A DNA stretch of 34,844 nt, from contig DUOS01000036.1 of assembly GCA_012838745.1 (NCBI GenBank), positions 1-34,844 of the forward strand, in the 5' to 3' direction. Under the pieces are notes generated by a model. That model searched no databases, was not told the DNA's origin, and saw only the letters and a list, made by a program, of their open reading frames with translations. Below are positions 220-13,994 of this stretch, in pieces. The stretch comes from Treponema sp. GTDB taxonomy: Bacteria > Spirochaetota > Spirochaetia > Treponematales > Treponemataceae. Made by a program: the position numbers and the translations under genes. Each line of letters begins with the position of its first letter. The first letter of the stretch is position 1.

Positions 220-1809
220 ATGCGTATAGTTTCTCGGACCCAACACGAGGGCCGCACAGTATTAGCTATTTCAACCGGCTTATCCGCCCATGCGGCGGCT
301 AAGTCTCGGTTGCAGCGGGGTAAGCGGCCTCATGGCTACCTCATTACACCTGCAGGAGTAGTTCATCCATGGATACCAGAAGGTACGTTTTGTCGGGATG
401 CCCGGGATGATGCTCGTGTCCAACGGGAAGGTGGGGGCATTCTGCATATATGGGGTCCGGATTTTGACGGCGTATCCCTGCTAGATATTATAACTAATAC
501 TGACACTGAAGCAGCTTGGCTTGCTTTTCATCGTTGCTTTACTATAATTGCACGAGCTGCTTCGGGCGCAGGCCCATTGGGAAGTGCCCTACTCAGCGAA
601 GCGGCCCAATCGGGTCCAGAAGCTATTTTTCGAGCAAAAGATAATTCGGTACTTATCCTTCCCGGTGACACGTATCGGCGTAGCCTCGCTTCACACGGAG
701 TTACCGTAGAACGGGAAAATCGCCTTGAGTGGGTTTTACCAGACAATGATCAGAAATCTCCAGAGCACGGTATAGCTTTTTTGGCGGGTGCATGTGCCTA
801 CCGAATCGTAGGTGGGGTTTCTCCTTTTATGAATACCACCTTCTGGTCTGTTCAAGAAAAGGTTAAAGAAACCGAAGATACCTTTTTAGCTCGTCTTATT
901 AGGTCTGGGTACGTACTACCTCTTAATTTATTACAACCAAAAATAAATAGTTCTCTTTGCAAAAATATAATGAACGCAATTACTATGGCCGAACCCGCAG
1001 CGGTTACGTCAATCTTTGAGTTCGGTGAATCATATTCTAATCTTATAGATTTACAATCTTTACAAACAGACACTCCTCAAGCCTTGTTAGCGAAGAAAAC
1101 AGCATTTGAGCAAAAACAGATGCGTCGGCTTTCTCAATCCACTTTTGTACAGAAAAACACGACAAAATTTCTTGTTATAGGGATTATAGCGGCCTTTGTT
1201 ATTATTTTTGGTGGTATTTTTATAACAGATATGGCGTCAAAACCCACTACAGAAGGGCTTGAGCCCCAAGAAGTTGTTAACGGATTTTATGAAGCAGTTG
1301 ACCTGCTCGATTCAAATACCCTTCAAGCCTATTCTTCAAAAAGTGCTTTTAAAGAGTATTCTGGCTTTTTAACTTCCATGTATATGACTCTCCGCTTTAG
1401 AGAAAACTATGAGGGCGAATCAAAGATTTCGACTCCGATAGAAATTTTTGAAAAGAAACTAGACAATACTCATATTGTTTATGGTATTACAAATTTAACC
1501 TGCCAAGAATTAAACCGAAGCAAAGATTTAATAGAATTCAATATAGGGTTTTATCTTTTTATACCGGAAAATCTTGCTGAACAAAATGAACTGCCGGACA
1601 CTACACACAGGGAAATTGAAGAACCACTAGCCGTGTATTACTACCGTGATACCTGCACGCTTTCATTAAAAAAAGGCCGGTGGATTGTCTCAGATATCCA
1701 GGCTATAGAACGAAGCATTATAGAAAAAAAGGGAACACGTATTTTTGAGGCGATAGCCGAAGGAAGCGGGGCAACCCTGCCCTACGCCCCCTCAGCAAAA
1801 AATCAATGA
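220..1809 (+). CDS. Single-pass membrane protein of unknown function, cytoplasmic N-terminal domain (possible degenerate kinase fold)
   Basis: I do not recognise a named family for this 529-residue protein. It has a soluble region at residues 1-310, one strong transmembrane segment at about 316-336 (FLVIGIIAAFVIIFGGIFI), and a predicted extracytoplasmic domain of about 190 residues. No signal peptide precedes it, so N-in/C-out is the likely topology. The N-terminal part carries scattered echoes of a protein-kinase C-lobe: GIAFLAGACAYRIVGGVSPF at 184-203 resembles the helix F/TG-PF region, and LPLNLLQPKINSSLCKNIMNAI resembles the helix H/I region. I see no HRD, DFG or Lys-Glu pair, so it would be a pseudokinase if the fold is real. 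The start of the outer domain (EVVNGFYEAVDLLD) is vaguely NTF2-like. It follows hflC by 2 bases and its stop overlaps the convergent lepB stop by 7 bases. Being a gene is very likely; its function is unknown. Confidence 0.85.
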   Translation: MRIVSRTQHEGRTVLAISTGLSAHAAAKSRLQRGKRPHGYLITPAGVVHPWIPEGTFCRDARDDARVQREGGGILHIWGPDFDGVSLLDIITNTDTEAAWLAFHRCFTIIARAASGAGPLGSALLSEAAQSGPEAIFRAKDNSVLILPGDTYRRSLASHGVTVERENRLEWVLPDNDQKSPEHGIAFLAGACAYRIVGGVSPFMNTTFWSVQEKVKETEDTFLARLIRSGYVLPLNLLQPKINSSLCKNIMNAITMAEPAAVTSIFEFGESYSNLIDLQSLQTDTPQALLAKKTAFEQKQMRRLSQSTFVQKNTTKFLVIGIIAAFVIIFGGIFITDMASKPTTEGLEPQEVVNGFYEAVDLLDSNTLQAYSSKSAFKEYSGFLTSMYMTLRFRENYEGESKISTPIEIFEKKLDNTHIVYGITNLTCQELNRSKDLIEFNIGFYLFIPENLAEQNELPDTTHREIEEPLAVYYYRDTCTLSLKKGRWIVSDIQAIERSIIEKKGTRIFEAIAEGSGATLPYAPSAKNQ

Positions 1810-3473
1810 GGAACCCCTGCTCTTGCTGGTGGCCAAAACCTAAACAGAGCAGTTCCCATAATGCGCTCTGACGGAACCCATTGAGGATCTAGATTCGAGT
1901 GATATAAAAATGATAGCGGATCTTGGATATCAACCGGCACTAGCGTTACTGTATACGAATGGCGCATATCAAGAGAATTAAGCCGATTATCACCCATCAA
2001 TAAAAATGCATTTTCAGGAATACTCTGATCTGGTGGAAATTCCGCCATATTGCGTTGATCATGAACAGCCATGAAAAAACGGTAGGTATCTGCTTCTGAA
2101 AGAAGCGCACGCCTCTGAGTATCACGAACGAATTCGGAAGCGGTTACATTTGCCGTCATGAGTTCAGCATTTCGAACCACTAACTTTCCAAAAGCAATCT
2201 TTAAAAGTAAATTACAGTTTTGAGATCTTGTTTCAAAAAGATTTTTTGGGGATTCAGATTGAGACCACGCCGTTAAAAAAGAGCGAAACCATGCAGCACC
2301 ACCGTTTGTAGTTAGTAAAACACGGGAAATAGTATCATTCGCTTGAAACAATGATAAAATCTCTCTTTCTTCTTGCGAAACTAGGTCAGGATCAAATCCA
2401 ACAGAGTCTGCAACCGGCTTTAGGTTTTCAAATCGTTTAGCTATTTGAATAAGCTCAGTAAGCGCAGCGTCTGTATTCAGCTCAGCACGCAGTGATTCAA
2501 CCGAAAGAAGAAGATCATACGCTTCTCGAGAAAGGGGAACGTTTCTTACGAGGGAGAGTTGTGAGCGAGGCAGGGAAGCAATATCCCAAGCAGCCCAACG
2601 CGCTTCTTCTTGTACTGGAAGGTATTCATCATCGTTTTCTTGTTTCGAATACAGAACCCCATCTACCATCATGAGTTTCTCACCTGGAAGCCCCACCACA
2701 CGTTTTACCAGAGGATCAGCCTTCACTGCGCCGGACTCATCTCGGTTAATGTTAACAGTGGTAAATGAAAGCATGTACACCAGCTGAGAAACAAAGGATC
2801 TCAACCGTGCCTCACGAGTATCATTATAATGCGGGTTACTGAAAACTACGATATCGCCTCGTTCATAGGTACGCATGCGGGGTATTCCTACCTGGGTAAG
2901 AGGAAACTTAGGGCCAGAGACTGTCTTTACAACAACGACACGGTCCTTAACCATAAACTCAGGTACCATAGATTCTGAAGGAATTTCATACAGCTGAAAA
3001 AAGAAAAGATTAATGAGCAAAACCAAACAGGCCGCCTGTATCAGAGCATCGATCCATTCGAAAGCATGAACTATAATCGGCTTCTTACCTGAAACAGGTT
3101 TTTCTAGTGACGGGTAATAACGGTGCACCCGTTTGTCGCTGAGTCTAAACAGGAGAATAGCAATGGTTACGGTAATAACAAGCCATAAAGAAACTGAAGC
3201 AAGATCAAGTAAAAACCCTGTCTCTGATATACCTGCTCTCCGTGCTACAAGGGCAGCAAAAAGAACGAAAACAAGGTATTCCAATAGTTTCTTTACCACT
3301 GTTAGCTTTTTTCTCGAAGGAGAATGAACAAAGCGAAATACAACGAAATAGAAAACGAGAGAGTATAAGAATGTTACAAGGAATCCAACCAGAGGAACTC
3401 CGCCAGAGAAGGATACACAAGTTAGAGTAAATAGAGCAGTACAAACTGAGCAGAGTACAAATAAAATCGTCAT
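1803..3473 (-). CDS. lepB: Signal peptidase I with extra N-terminal membrane segments and a large insertion
   Basis: This protein removes signal peptides from exported proteins at the outer face of the cytoplasmic membrane. The ATG at 3473 is chosen because GGAGG stands 4 bases upstream; an in-frame start 15 bases earlier (3488) lacks such a site, and residue numbers here count from that earlier codon. The catalytic serine is in SESM (about S173) and the general-base lysine in VKRVVGLPGE (about K262). The conserved GDNRLNSLDMRH block is at about 499-510. Between Lys and GDNR lie about 235 residues, roughly twice the E. coli spacing, so a helical insertion of 110 or more residues is present. 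About five hydrophobic segments precede the catalytic domain, more than the one or two usual in LepB. It is monocistronic and divergent from the fumarase gene, sharing a short promoter region. Confidence 0.93.
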   Translation of the reverse strand: MTILFVLCSVCTALFTLTCVSFSGGVPLVGFLVTFLYSLVFYFVVFRFVHSPSRKKLTVVKKLLEYLVFVLFAALVARRAGISETGFLLDLASVSLWLVITVTIAILLFRLSDKRVHRYYPSLEKPVSGKKPIIVHAFEWIDALIQAACLVLLINLFFFQLYEIPSESMVPEFMVKDRVVVVKTVSGPKFPLTQVGIPRMRTYERGDIVVFSNPHYNDTREARLRSFVSQLVYMLSFTTVNINRDESGAVKADPLVKRVVGLPGEKLMMVDGVLYSKQENDDEYLPVQEEARWAAWDIASLPRSQLSLVRNVPLSREAYDLLLSVESLRAELNTDAALTELIQIAKRFENLKPVADSVGFDPDLVSQEEREILSLFQANDTISRVLLTTNGGAAWFRSFLTAWSQSESPKNLFETRSQNCNLLLKIAFGKLVVRNAELMTANVTASEFVRDTQRRALLSEADTYRFFMAVHDQRNMAEFPPDQSIPENAFLLMGDNRLNSLDMRHSYTVTLVPVDIQDPLSFLYHSNLDPQWVPSERIMGTALFRFWPPARAGVPH

Positions 3474-3498
3474 AAAACCTCCGTACACTAAAAAAGAA

Positions 3499-7900: not shown

Positions 7901-7925
7901 AATAACGCAGAGTATATCGGTTTTG

Positions 7926-7954
7926 TTGCCTTAAGCATACTGGTGTGTTATTGT
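7926..7954 (+). promoter_or_regulatory. Putative leaderless promoter of the M48-like gene
   Basis: TTGCCT (7926-7931), a 17-base spacer and an extended -10 TGTTATTGT (hexamer TATTGT at 7949-7954) precede the ATG at 7961 by only 6 bases. Transcription would start at or next to the A of the ATG. Hexamer matches are 4/6 each, helped by the TGn, so this is a moderate prediction. Confidence 0.4.
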
Positions 7955-7960
7955 ATTTAT

Positions 7961-9838
7961 ATGAAACGAACACCGTTTTTTTTTGTTATTTCCTGTATTC
8001 TTGCACTCATCTGCCTGCCAGCCCATACGGCAACTGACGCAGAGATCCGCAAAGAATTACATAATGGCGCACGACAAGAACTACTGAGCATTGGAACTAA
8101 AGAAATAGCTCCTGCGAATGTAGGAGACTGGCGCGAAACCATCGATTCAGCACTTTTTATGCTCTTTCGTCGCACTGAACTTTTTCGTGGCCCCCTTCGC
8201 ATTATGATAGTCGAAGATGCCACGGTTTTTTCTCGTATCTATCCAGAAGGAATCATAGTTCTTTCATCTGGCTTGCTCGATTATATTGATCTTCAAGTTT
8301 TTGAACTGACGGTCAACGAACCACGACGTGCGAGGGATCATGCTAATGAGCGAGAGCGCATGCTCGCCCCTTTTCTTGCGTACAACGCTGCTCGGTTTGC
8401 CTTAGATCTCGATTTTCGCTCATTTAAACGCACCGCGAAAGAAATAGGAACATCTCGCGCAGCAGGTAATATTTCTGTTTCTATGTTACCTAGCAATTCT
8501 GAAATTCAACAAACAGATCAGCTCGCTAAAGTACTTATTAAACTAGCAGGCTATAACCCTGAACACTATGACTCTTTATTAAATCATATGCGGAAATTTT
8601 CTCCGATACCAGGAAATAGCCTTTCCTGCTGGTTTGATTCCCCTATAGAACCAAGTGAAAGGCGTATTTTTCTAGAAAAAAATGTAGAAAAAACAAATGA
8701 CCTAACTTCAGCTTTTTCTATAATTTTACAAACCCTTCGAAACGGTAATGCCTATCAGGACGCTATTTCTGCCGTAACAGAACTCCGAGAAACCATGACG
8801 AGTTCAATGTATCTTTCACGGCTCGAAGCCCTTATGCTCCATCACTACTGGCTTTCTACTGTTCAGCCAGAAAAACAAATAATGAAAACTTTTTTTCCTT
8901 TTGCCAGTGTACAAGATCCCTCTCGGGAGTTATTTATTCAGTTAGCAAAAAGCAAGAAAAACCCTACTAGCAGTAAATCAGGAACCCAGCCCCTAAAACC
9001 AGAAGAAGGCCCGTCTACAATTTACAACTCAGCCTTGTTCGCGTATGAAACGTTTCTTTCTGCTCAAGTTGATCCGTCGTTTTCATCAACACAGGCAATG
9101 CTCCTTTTTCAGGGAAGAAAAGATACAAACCGCGCACTAGAAATTGCGGAATCTGCATCCCGTCTTGAATCGCAAGACTTTGTTGCAAAAGCTAATTACG
9201 CTACCTTGCTTTTTTTATCTGGCAAGGATACAACGGAAGCATTACGCATAATGTCTCGGCTCTTGAGTAGTAATCGACTCTTCGAAGACAAAAAAAGAAT
9301 TTCTAATTTGAGCAGCCCGCTTCTCCTTGATATAGGAATACCAGGAGATGAGCGAGACCTTCTCATAAACCATGCTATCATGCTTAATGCTACAAAAAAC
9401 CGCTCAAGTGCAACAAAACTATTAGAAACCCTTGAAAGCTGGGAAGGTAAAAAAGCGCTCAACTCTAAATTACTCCTTCGTGGTATTTCTCTAGGTGACA
9501 CCACGAGTGAACTTATAAATCAATGGGGACACCCTGAGTCAATTGCATATAATTATTATTCAGAAACATGGCAATTCCCAAAACTCGAAGTTGAAGTTTC
9601 TTTAGAACAGCCTGTTGAAGGTAAAGATCCTCGTATAGCTCGTATTACGCTAAACCAAGGTTCCCCTGTTTCTCCTGGAGGAGAAATACGTACGGGAGAT
9701 TCTAGAAATGATTTTGAACAAACATTCGGAAAACCAATGTATCGATCTGGAGATTGCGAAGTGTACAGCGTCGAGGGAACACGCGTAACCGTTCTCTACT
9801 TATTCGAAAGAATACGAAGTATAACGATTAGCAACTAA
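7961..9838 (+). CDS. Secreted M48-like protein lacking HExxH, with C-terminal BamE-like repeats
   Basis: From the ATG at 7961 (625 residues) it opens with a Sec signal peptide, MKRTPFFFVISCILALICLP, with likely cleavage after AHTA; no lipobox is visible. Residues 80-110 (VEDATVFSRIYPEGIIVLSSGLL) match the M48 metalloprotease segment before the active-site helix. Residues 181-200 (EIQQTDQLAKVLIKLAGYNP) match the downstream E-x2-AD-A-x-AGYDP block and SPIEPSERRIFLE the P-x-x-ER block. The active-site helix itself reads LAPFLAYNAARF, with no HExxH, so it is predicted inactive. A helical TPR-like middle follows (about 390-450). The C-terminus has two similar units, ISLGDTTSELINQWGHPES and IRTGDSRNDFEQTFGKPMY, resembling the G-x-x-V-x-x-x-G-x-P core of BamE/SmpA-type domains. 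It is probably a periplasmic scaffold or chaperone; the exact role is unknown. Confidence 0.8.
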   Translation: MKRTPFFFVISCILALICLPAHTATDAEIRKELHNGARQELLSIGTKEIAPANVGDWRETIDSALFMLFRRTELFRGPLRIMIVEDATVFSRIYPEGIIVLSSGLLDYIDLQVFELTVNEPRRARDHANERERMLAPFLAYNAARFALDLDFRSFKRTAKEIGTSRAAGNISVSMLPSNSEIQQTDQLAKVLIKLAGYNPEHYDSLLNHMRKFSPIPGNSLSCWFDSPIEPSERRIFLEKNVEKTNDLTSAFSIILQTLRNGNAYQDAISAVTELRETMTSSMYLSRLEALMLHHYWLSTVQPEKQIMKTFFPFASVQDPSRELFIQLAKSKKNPTSSKSGTQPLKPEEGPSTIYNSALFAYETFLSAQVDPSFSSTQAMLLFQGRKDTNRALEIAESASRLESQDFVAKANYATLLFLSGKDTTEALRIMSRLLSSNRLFEDKKRISNLSSPLLLDIGIPGDERDLLINHAIMLNATKNRSSATKLLETLESWEGKKALNSKLLLRGISLGDTTSELINQWGHPESIAYNYYSETWQFPKLEVEVSLEQPVEGKDPRIARITLNQGSPVSPGGEIRTGDSRNDFEQTFGKPMYRSGDCEVYSVEGTRVTVLYLFERIRSITISN

Positions 9839-12122: not shown

Positions 12123-13994
12123 ATGAAATTTGAAAACAACGCATTAGTTCTGTATAAAGGACAGCCCGCTGTAATAATTGCTCAAGATACTGATAAATTT
12201 GAAATCCAACTTAAAACAGGTAAAAAGCGGGTTCGCGAAAAAGACTTTGTATTGCTGAACAAAGGTCCAGTTTCGTCGGTATCTGATGTAATAAAGAAAG
12301 AGGCCCCTGAAGCTGATTTCGCCGAAGCAGCAGATTTTTTCCACGGAGAAACAGTTACATTCGCTGATCTTTCGGCTCTGCTTTGGGATTCATTAGAACC
12401 ATCTTTTTACTGGGCATGCTGGAACGCAGTGAGCACATCCCCTTGGTTTATCTGTACAACACCAGATCAAGAAATTTACATAAGAAATGCTGAGGAAGTT
12501 GCGGCGATTTTTAAGGCAGCTGAAGAAAAAAACGAAGAAGAATCAGCCCGCGAAGCTTTTATAACCCGCTTAAAAAACACCTCTACTGGAAAAGACGGAG
12601 GAATTCTAAGACCAAATGACGACCGTTTTTTACAGGAGATTGAAGCACTTGCATTAGGAACTTCAACAAAATCGAAATCCCTGGCACAGGCAGGCGTTGC
12701 TGAAACATCACAACAAGCGCACCGTATACTCTTAGCCTGTGAGTACTGGCAAGATTCTCGTAACCCGTGGCCAACTCGACACGGGCTTACACTCGCATCG
12801 TCACCCATCCCTATAGATCCGCCAAAAGAAAGTACTACACGAATGGATTTAACGGCTCTTGATTCCTGGGCTATAGACAACGACTGGAGTGCCGATCCTG
12901 ATGACGCTATCAGTCTTGAAAACGATGCATTATGGATTCATGTTGCCGATCCAGCAGAAACTGTTTTACCCGATTCTCCTGCAGACATTGCAGCACGCGC
13001 ACGGGGATCGACCCTCTACGTTCCTGAAGGTGCTTCACGGATGTTATCTGAAGAATCTTTGAAATATTATGCCCTCGGTCTCTCCGACACATCTCTCGCA
13101 TTATCCTTTAAGATTCAATTTACTGAAACAGGAGCTATAGACGAAGTTTCAATTCACCGGACTATCATCAAAGTAACCCAATTAAAATATAGCGAGGTAT
13201 CGCTTCGTGCGAACGATCCTGCATTTTCTCGGTTTTTTGAACTAGCTGAACGTAATAAAGCTCGCCGTGACGCTGCCGGAGGGGTACAAATTAACTTGCC
13301 TGAAGTACATATTTCTGTAGATACAGATAAACCGCCTCAAGAACAAATTTGTATTACACCCATTAAAACAGAACCTGCAGCAGAAATGATTCGAGAAATG
13401 ATGCTCATAGCAGGAGAAGCTACTGCCCGTTTTGCGTTTAAAAATCGTATTCCGTTTCAGTATGTTAGCCAAGATAAACCTGAATTTCCTTCTACACTCC
13501 CAGAAGAACTTGCTGGAGAATATCGAAAACGCCGATCCATGCGAGCAAGAAAAGTAGGAACTATACCGGCAGATCATGCTGGATTGGGTATTGGCATGTA
13601 CGCACAGGTAACAAGCCCTCTTCGCCGATACGGTGACTTAGTAGGCCATCAACAATTACATCGTTTTCTATCTGGAGAACCCCTCATGGATACAGACGAC
13701 ATGCTCATGCGCATTGCAGCAGGCGACGCGGCTGCACGTGAATGCACCCTCTGTGAACGAGAATCAAACTTGCACTGGAAATTGCTCTTCCTCTCTTGTA
13801 ATCAAAAATGGCAAGGAGAAGGCGTTATTGTAGAAAAAAATGATAACAATGCAACTGCAACGGTACTAATACCCGAACTTGCTATGGAATATCGTATCCC
13901 CTGCCCCGCTGAAACCGCTCTTAATGATCGAGTTAAACTTTCCGTTTCTCGCATTTCTATTCCTGATCAAACAGTTTCTTTTATTTTAGCATAA
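12123..13994 (+). CDS. RNB-family (RNase II/R-like) exoribonuclease
   Basis: RNB enzymes degrade single-stranded RNA processively from the 3' end using Mg2+ held by clustered aspartates. The catalytic cluster is visible as AIDNDWSADPDDAISL at about residues 250-265, matching the RNase II D-x5-D-x-DD pattern. The second signature, TSPLRRYGDLVGHQQLHRFL, lies at about 495-515 and contains the RNB arginines. The N-terminus (NALVLYKGQPAVIIAQDTDKF) looks like a small SH3/KOW-like beta barrel, not a cold-shock domain, as in plastid/cyanobacterial-type RNase II proteins. A short S1-like tail follows (GEGVIVEKNDNNATATVLIP). At 623 residues it is near RNase II size. It is divergent from lysC and ends just before a bidirectional terminator. 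Whether its role is general decay or rRNA processing is not decidable here. Confidence 0.88.
   Translation: MKFENNALVLYKGQPAVIIAQDTDKFEIQLKTGKKRVREKDFVLLNKGPVSSVSDVIKKEAPEADFAEAADFFHGETVTFADLSALLWDSLEPSFYWACWNAVSTSPWFICTTPDQEIYIRNAEEVAAIFKAAEEKNEEESAREAFITRLKNTSTGKDGGILRPNDDRFLQEIEALALGTSTKSKSLAQAGVAETSQQAHRILLACEYWQDSRNPWPTRHGLTLASSPIPIDPPKESTTRMDLTALDSWAIDNDWSADPDDAISLENDALWIHVADPAETVLPDSPADIAARARGSTLYVPEGASRMLSEESLKYYALGLSDTSLALSFKIQFTETGAIDEVSIHRTIIKVTQLKYSEVSLRANDPAFSRFFELAERNKARRDAAGGVQINLPEVHISVDTDKPPQEQICITPIKTEPAAEMIREMMLIAGEATARFAFKNRIPFQYVSQDKPEFPSTLPEELAGEYRKRRSMRARKVGTIPADHAGLGIGMYAQVTSPLRRYGDLVGHQQLHRFLSGEPLMDTDDMLMRIAAGDAAARECTLCERESNLHWKLLFLSCNQKWQGEGVIVEKNDNNATATVLIPELAMEYRIPCPAETALNDRVKLSVSRISIPDQTVSFILA

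Follow-up and report, generated by a model that had tools for sequence, protein, structure and literature searches.

What does a protein do that has kept the surroundings of an M48 metalloprotease active site and lost the active site itself? This question is raised by an open reading frame on the forward strand of the window, the whole stretch of 34,844 nucleotides of Treponema sp. DNA that was analysed. The initial annotation had described its product as an M48-like protein in which HExxH was erased and two C-terminal units resembling BamE/SmpA were gained, and had linked it to outer-membrane assembly through BepA, an active periplasmic protease of Gram-negative bacteria.

The gene and its surroundings

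The frame is open at positions 7943-9838 (+) from a GTG (631 codons) and has 625 codons from the ATG at 7961, the start given in the initial annotation (7961-9838), which fits a promoter-like element ending 6 bases ahead of it. The predicted product of 625 amino acids comprises an M48 domain without zinc site, a TPR domain and, at the C-terminus, a domain made up of a pair of alpha-beta4 units. The promoter-like element (7924..7954, +), which is conserved between rlmI and the M48-like gene, is shared by an alignment of 12 members from the same genus, most of them about 30% identical in protein sequence, and from its letters (TTGCC ... TATTGT) it looks like a sigma70-type promoter. The rlmI/M48-like intergenic region (window 7905-7960) is far better conserved in the genus than the protein (GTATA...TTTCGTTGCC...GTGTTATTGT, 12 sequences), and within its own genome the pattern occurs with fewer than 3 mismatches at one place only, 7924..7954. 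Since the promoter-like sequence ends so close to the ATG, the message may be nearly leaderless. No Rfam family matched in the window at the gathering score.

Read by eye, residues 1-24 (7961..8032, +) resemble a signal peptide, with a basic start, a hydrophobic run and PAHTA, and the leaders of aligned family members are similar; the protein is apparently Sec-exported. No signal-peptide cysteine is conserved in the family, the closest homologue (L002) having none.

Upstream of the gene lies the divergent pair rlmI-miaA and downstream the convergent pair dapB-lysC, followed in the window by an RNase II-like gene. Among 16 loci (L001-L016), rlmI was adjacent in 13 and dapB in 14, and in two other genera (eight genomes) an RNase II-like gene stands directly 3' of the M48-like gene. 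No bam gene was found adjacent to the M48-like gene in the neighbourhood comparison. The RNase II-like protein itself (window 12123-13994) has a clear RNB domain match that lies far under every NCBIfam equivalog cut-off. Elsewhere in the window, positions 1803-3488 encode an unusually long Signal peptidase I-like protein (561 aa) with its S26 match split into two stretches, and positions 220-1809 hold a 529-aa open reading frame to which neither Pfam nor NCBIfam gave a match at E<=0.1.

Relationship to M48 proteases

The M48 flanking blocks quoted in the initial annotation are present in the open reading frame. Curated models, however, did not recognise the window protein: it had no match to PF01435 at E<=0.1, nothing over cut-off in NCBIfam, and in Pfam a sub-threshold TPR match alone (TPR_19, E 0.02), so that the first reading of the motifs went beyond what these collections show. 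Likewise, a phmmer search against PDB sequences returned nothing useful (best E 0.56). PF01435 was reached by one of 16 family members (E 9e-4). Although Pfam misses the window protein, the M48 relation was recovered by profile searches. A profile of these 16 members (alignment A1), run over 394 genomes of the class, picked up ordinary M48 proteases over residues ~72-247, the best at about E 1e-7 (the figure for one genome), and in one genome (G014) the match fell at the same place that PF01435 finds. When A1 was scanned against whole genomes, none of its patterns proved sufficiently conserved. Moreover, hhalign of the family against M48 gave a probability of 98.5% over 150 columns, with an E-value, for this single comparison, of 2.1e-15.

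The AlphaFold2 model of the window protein (mean pLDDT 85.7, pTM 0.86) points in the same direction. All nine Foldseek matches at E<=0.001 were chains of BepA or the M48 protease 3c37, and the top solved match in VIA-align was BepA (6ait_C, Z 14.6, rmsd 3.9, 190 aligned residues, model residues 28-248), followed by 3c37_B (Z 13.9), while unrelated TPR proteins scored 12.4 and lower, mostly over the TPR range up to residue 495. Because helical models give a high background of Z scores, this evidence was weighed jointly with that of the profiles. On this basis residues 28-248 (8042..8704, +) are assigned to an M48 pseudoprotease domain and residues 249-495 (8705..9445, +) to a TPR-type helical solenoid, the latter suggested by helix pairs in the model and by the many TPR structures in the VIA list, besides the weak TPR_19 match. 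Within the M48 part, DSSP assigns a predicted beta-strand to residues 91-94 (8231..8242, +), at the position of the substrate-binding edge strand of BepA as matched by alignment columns rather than by superposition; where active relatives read NAF, the window protein reads differently at these residues.

Loss of the zinc site

Columns were counted in three sets of rows: 23 inactive members with an open frame, among them L015, which a contig end cuts short; 11 active relatives; and 15 M48 proteases, with which the far row L085 was grouped. The presence of HExxH in 15 of 15 M48 rows is true by construction, since these rows were picked for having it. The 11 active rows, which come from other spirochaete families, were not chosen by the motif; all 10 that are readable there carry it, and the eleventh is without that stretch.

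As claimed at the outset, HExxH is erased in the window protein, where the aligned residues 141-145 (8381..8395, +) read YNAAR, and an intact motif was found in none of the 23 inactive members. The first His is kept in 3 of 23 inactive rows, the catalytic Glu in 11 and the second His in 2, never alongside the first, compared with 10 of 10 active rows in each case. The third zinc ligand, a Glu in 11/11 active and 15/15 M48 rows, is absent from all 23 inactive ones and has become Ile182 (8504..8506, +) in the window protein. The His of the active-site plug motif HPx4R, as this is defined in an earlier study (PMC7950410), is replaced by Pro228 (8642..8644, +) with Arg234 kept; at this column the inactive rows have His in 0/22, with one gap, and Pro in 11/22, against His in 11/11 active rows. 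The Asp of ExxAD and the Arg of HPx4R, by comparison, are retained in 23/23 inactive rows.

Residues found at the first-His column of inactive members include Y, F, A, H, I, V, P, Q, R, N and D, and since the ligand positions vary freely nothing indicates that another metal site has taken over. That the protein might still be an active metalloprotease with a rebuilt site is therefore very improbable: the Glu of HExxH persists in about half of the rows and one of the two His in 5 of 23, but all four ligand positions drift, both His occur together in no row and the Glu ligand in none. We conclude that the protein is almost certainly a pseudoprotease of M48 origin.

The C-terminal tandem domain

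Modelled alone, residues 496-625 (pLDDT 92.3) are predicted to form two alpha-beta4 units, unit 1 at residues 505-564 (9473..9652, +) and unit 2 at residues 574-625 (9680..9835, +). An hhalign comparison of the two gave E 3.8e-4 with a probability of just 36%, so that the case for a duplication is carried mainly by the fold. The best solved matches of this model, over 112-117 residues, were 4ifa (Z 11.5), 4h0a (Z 11.0) and the DUF4309 protein YjgB (4ygt, Z 10.7), followed by 9j9w (Z 10.2) and YfeY (2qzb, Z 8.7), compared with 7.1, 5.1 and 3.9 for the BamE structures 7txx, 5wam and 2km7 and at most 4.4 for BLIP. Both 4ifa and 4h0a are secreted proteins with an SCP/CAP domain, matched in their N-terminal part, which we take to be the CAP-associated domain (PF14504). 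Sub-threshold sequence matches go in the same direction, to DUF4309 at E 0.0037 in one of 16 members and to CAP_assoc_N at E 0.0051 in an active relative (L059).

The BamE family PF04355, on the other hand, was missing from the 15 families to which one or more of the 16 members gave a match at E<=1, had no match in the own genome at E<=0.1, and, in a search with this one model, was over cut-off in 0 of 40 relatives, which fits an absence of BamE in treponemes. The predicted units thus appear to share the broad BLIP/BamE-like fold and to stand closer to CAP-associated/DUF4309 domains than to BamE; the initial annotation was right about two repeated units of this general kind but not about their family.

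Distribution and origin of the family

Homologues were found in 16 of 59 relatives, among them all 12 genomes of the genus, the own genome included. Members of the inactive clade all belong to the window's family, which is Treponemataceae by the taxonomy entry of Brucepastera, and three of them bear species names (Brucepastera parasyntrophica, Treponema vincentii and T. putidum). The class search with profile A1 also found, in other families, three proteins (L059, L060 and L061, of which L060 is cut by a contig end) that carry HELGHYYNRH, the Glu ligand and the HPx4R plug. When 392 genomes of the phylum were searched with a profile built from these three, additional active forms appeared in six further genomes (L079-L083, L102, L103 and the truncated L084), and the window protein was recovered at E 9.2e-24. 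Two of the active forms (L102, L103) are paralogues with about 100 additional amino acids at the N-terminus, and this profile had three matches in one genome (G508) and two in another (G568); the third copy of the former (C148) was given no locus and stands outside the counts. In the sampled genomes no active long-form paralogue was found in the window's family.

Aligned with each other by hhalign, the inactive and active families match over 592 columns at E 2e-53, the C-terminal domain included, and by this measure they are one spirochaete M48-TPR-tandem family. In a tree of 46 of 49 rows (excluded were L084_act, truncated, L090_m48, with a long frame, and L051_psi, a near-copy), the inactive clade had a support of 100/100 and the active clade of 100/99, while the split of the M48 outgroup from these two was weakly supported (81/55). 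The simplest history, with the order of events taken from the tree, would be a single loss of the zinc site on the stem of the inactive clade. Since the sister proteins with HExxH share the whole architecture, the difference is best read as one ancestral loss; the gain of C-terminal units by the inactive protein, proposed initially, is rejected because the active sister family carries them.

Pseudoproteases as such are well known. A literature search, largely of open-access work and at title and abstract level, recognised no description of the inactive family, and no family name was found for the active spirochaete proteins.

Selection and decay

Pairwise Nei-Gojobori estimates for six pairs gave dN/dS values of 0.069, 0.116, 0.110, 0.128, 0.148 and 0.088; the last of these had a dS of 2.3 and is near saturation, and a seventh pair was fully saturated. 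For the M48 part alone, dS was usable in five pairs, which gave values of 0.03-0.22, and thus the dead domain is constrained like the rest of the protein; in six of the seven pairs, dN was lower for the M48 part than for the TPR part. Purifying selection on the protein is clear, and its gene neighbourhood persists as well. The dN/dS values contradict the idea of a decaying gene on its way out, as does a frame that is open in 23 genomes, and this explanation is scarcely credible, even if the rapid divergence between species (~30% identity) and one broken copy speak for it. In that copy, the orthologue L058 (G208, genus g15), the frame is broken by in-frame stops and its pieces lie in separate frames; moreover, many genomes of the window's family had no detectable copy in the searches of 59 relatives and of the class. 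Since the gene is broken in one species and found in 16 of 59 relatives, it is dispensable in places.

Proposed function and alternative explanations

Because the zinc site is lost in all intact copies examined and yet selection preserves the protein, it probably has a non-cutting role as a chaperone or scaffold. In E. coli, as described in parts of two studies, the edge strand beside the active site of BepA binds LptD at the BAM complex and also serves a chaperone-like function, in which secondary structure matters more than residues (PMC8423444), and residues of the BepA TPR contact BamA, BamC, BamD and LptD (PMC7950410). The initial view of an inactive BepA-type M48 homologue is supported by our results, as the zinc site is lost and BepA is the best solved match; the own genome carries an Omp85/BamA homologue (E 1.4e-30). 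Neither of the two findings that the initial annotation had named as refuting it was made: an M48 fold is predicted, and HExxH is intact in none of the 23 open-frame members, the sister family outside Treponemataceae being the one that retains it. A periplasmic factor that holds without cutting is the simplest inference, given the predicted strand 91-94, the TPR solenoid and the presence of the Omp85 homologue, and the protein could plausibly take part in the assembly of outer-membrane proteins without proteolysis, though this is unproven.

A BepA-type mechanism of holding without cutting, possibly on the BamA machine, is put forward tentatively, as the likeliest of the explanations considered, although slightly more open to doubt than to belief. 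The ancestor would have been a BepA-like M48-TPR protease, still active and equipped with a tandem BLIP/BamE-like domain at its C-terminus, the form that other spirochaetes still have, and the zinc site would have been lost in one ancestor of the sampled Treponemataceae members, the rest being kept by selection since. The present product would be a periplasmic pseudoprotease keeping the non-cutting half of the BepA job, in which the TPR solenoid and the tandem domain might anchor the protein to a partner, perhaps the BamA machine, with the old protease groove and its edge strand serving to hold unfolded outer-membrane protein clients uncut. Against a mechanism linked to BAM stand the neighbourhood without bam genes and the behaviour of protease-dead BepA in E. 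coli, which passages of the same studies describe as weakly chaperone-active in the case of E137Q (PMC8423444) and as dominant negative and not complementing (PMC7950410). The dispensability of the gene in places and a TPR packing that seems unlike that of BepA also count against it.

Searches for partners of this machinery added little. LptD was detected by PF19838 in 0 of 37 relatives and 0 of 23 chosen genomes, and by PF04453 in 0 of 25 relatives, and neither model found it in the own genome; PF04453 matched in 3 of the 23 chosen genomes, one over cut-off, namely the 1.1-Mb genome G030, in which the M48-like gene was not found. As these models miss LptD in nearly all spirochaetes tried, its non-detection in the own genome is uninformative, and since the genomes with active forms were negative too, the models are too insensitive to judge a loss of catalysis against a loss of LptD. 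Matches to BamD (PF13525) lay near the cut-off, may be generic TPR matches and were not used as evidence. Borrelia is described, in part of a published account, as being without BamC and BamE (PMC13382580).

An envelope scaffold apart from outer-membrane protein assembly is a somewhat unlikely alternative, in which the TPR and tandem BLIP-like domains would hold together a different complex of the periplasm, one concerned with lipoprotein sorting, peptidoglycan or periplasmic flagella, while the role of the M48 domain would be structural only. The lack of bam neighbours agrees with it, and so do the closest C-terminal folds, which come from Gram-positive secreted CAP-associated/DUF4309 proteins and not from BamE; a mere spacer, however, would not need the stronger constraint on dN seen in the M48 part relative to the TPR part. 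Decoy activity and regulation are common roles of pseudoproteases, and the dead domain could accordingly bind substrates and shield them from an active periplasmic protease, or regulate such a protease directly. Some carriers indeed have an active M48 protein as well (G015), but a PF01435 match is missing in 8 of the 12 genomes of the genus, the own genome included, in which the regulated enzyme would therefore be of another family, and no active long-form paralogue is at hand in the sampled genomes of the window's family; we regard a decoy as unlikely.

A more far-reaching version of the holding mechanism, and likewise an improbable one, is that treponemes swapped a proteolytic BepA for an obligate pseudoprotease that brings along a BamE-like module and serves, in this lineage specifically, as a non-cutting subunit or chaperone of an otherwise reduced spirochaete BAM machine. 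If true, evolution would have pulled apart two roles of BepA, holding and cutting, for which laboratory mutants gave no clean separation. As the chaperone-like and proteolytic roles of BepA are entangled in E. coli, a natural lineage that gave up cutting and still kept the protein under selection offers a ready test of the non-proteolytic half. The protein, which Pfam and NCBIfam overlook in the window, gives treponemes (T. vincentii and T. putidum among them) a candidate envelope-assembly factor. With it, a spirochaete M48-TPR-tandem family is defined in which some branches are active and others inactive.

Comparison with known systems

Among solved proteins, the stand-alone M48 protease 3c37 (Geobacter Q74D82) shares the M48 fold with the window protein but is without TPR and C-terminal domain. 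The N-terminal CAP-associated domain (PF14504; 4ifa, 4h0a) and DUF4309/YjgB (PF14172; 4ygt) resemble the C-terminal part in having two alpha-beta4 units side by side; these proteins differ in being Gram-positive secreted proteins without a protease or TPR part, and the sequence link to them is weak (E 0.004-0.005, one member each). BamE/SmpA (PF04355; 7txx, 5wam, 2km7) has the general alpha-beta unit in common with it, whereas BamE is a lipoprotein with a single unit and the family described here has no Pfam PF04355 match.

With the periplasmic M48 metalloprotease BepA (YfgC) of E. coli (6ait, 6sar), the window protein is predicted to share an M48 fold followed by TPR, and export. In contrast to BepA, to which it is about 12% identical, the window protein is without zinc ligands and has the extra C-terminal tandem domain, and its TPR packing against the M48 domain seems different (6sar over 28-435, rmsd 14.2). 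A likeness extending over the whole-length architecture (E 2e-53) is seen to the active spirochaete M48-TPR-BLIP-like proteins (L059, L060, L061, L079-L083, L102 and L103), which, unlike the window protein, keep HExxH, the Glu and HPx4R and occur in other families of the phylum.
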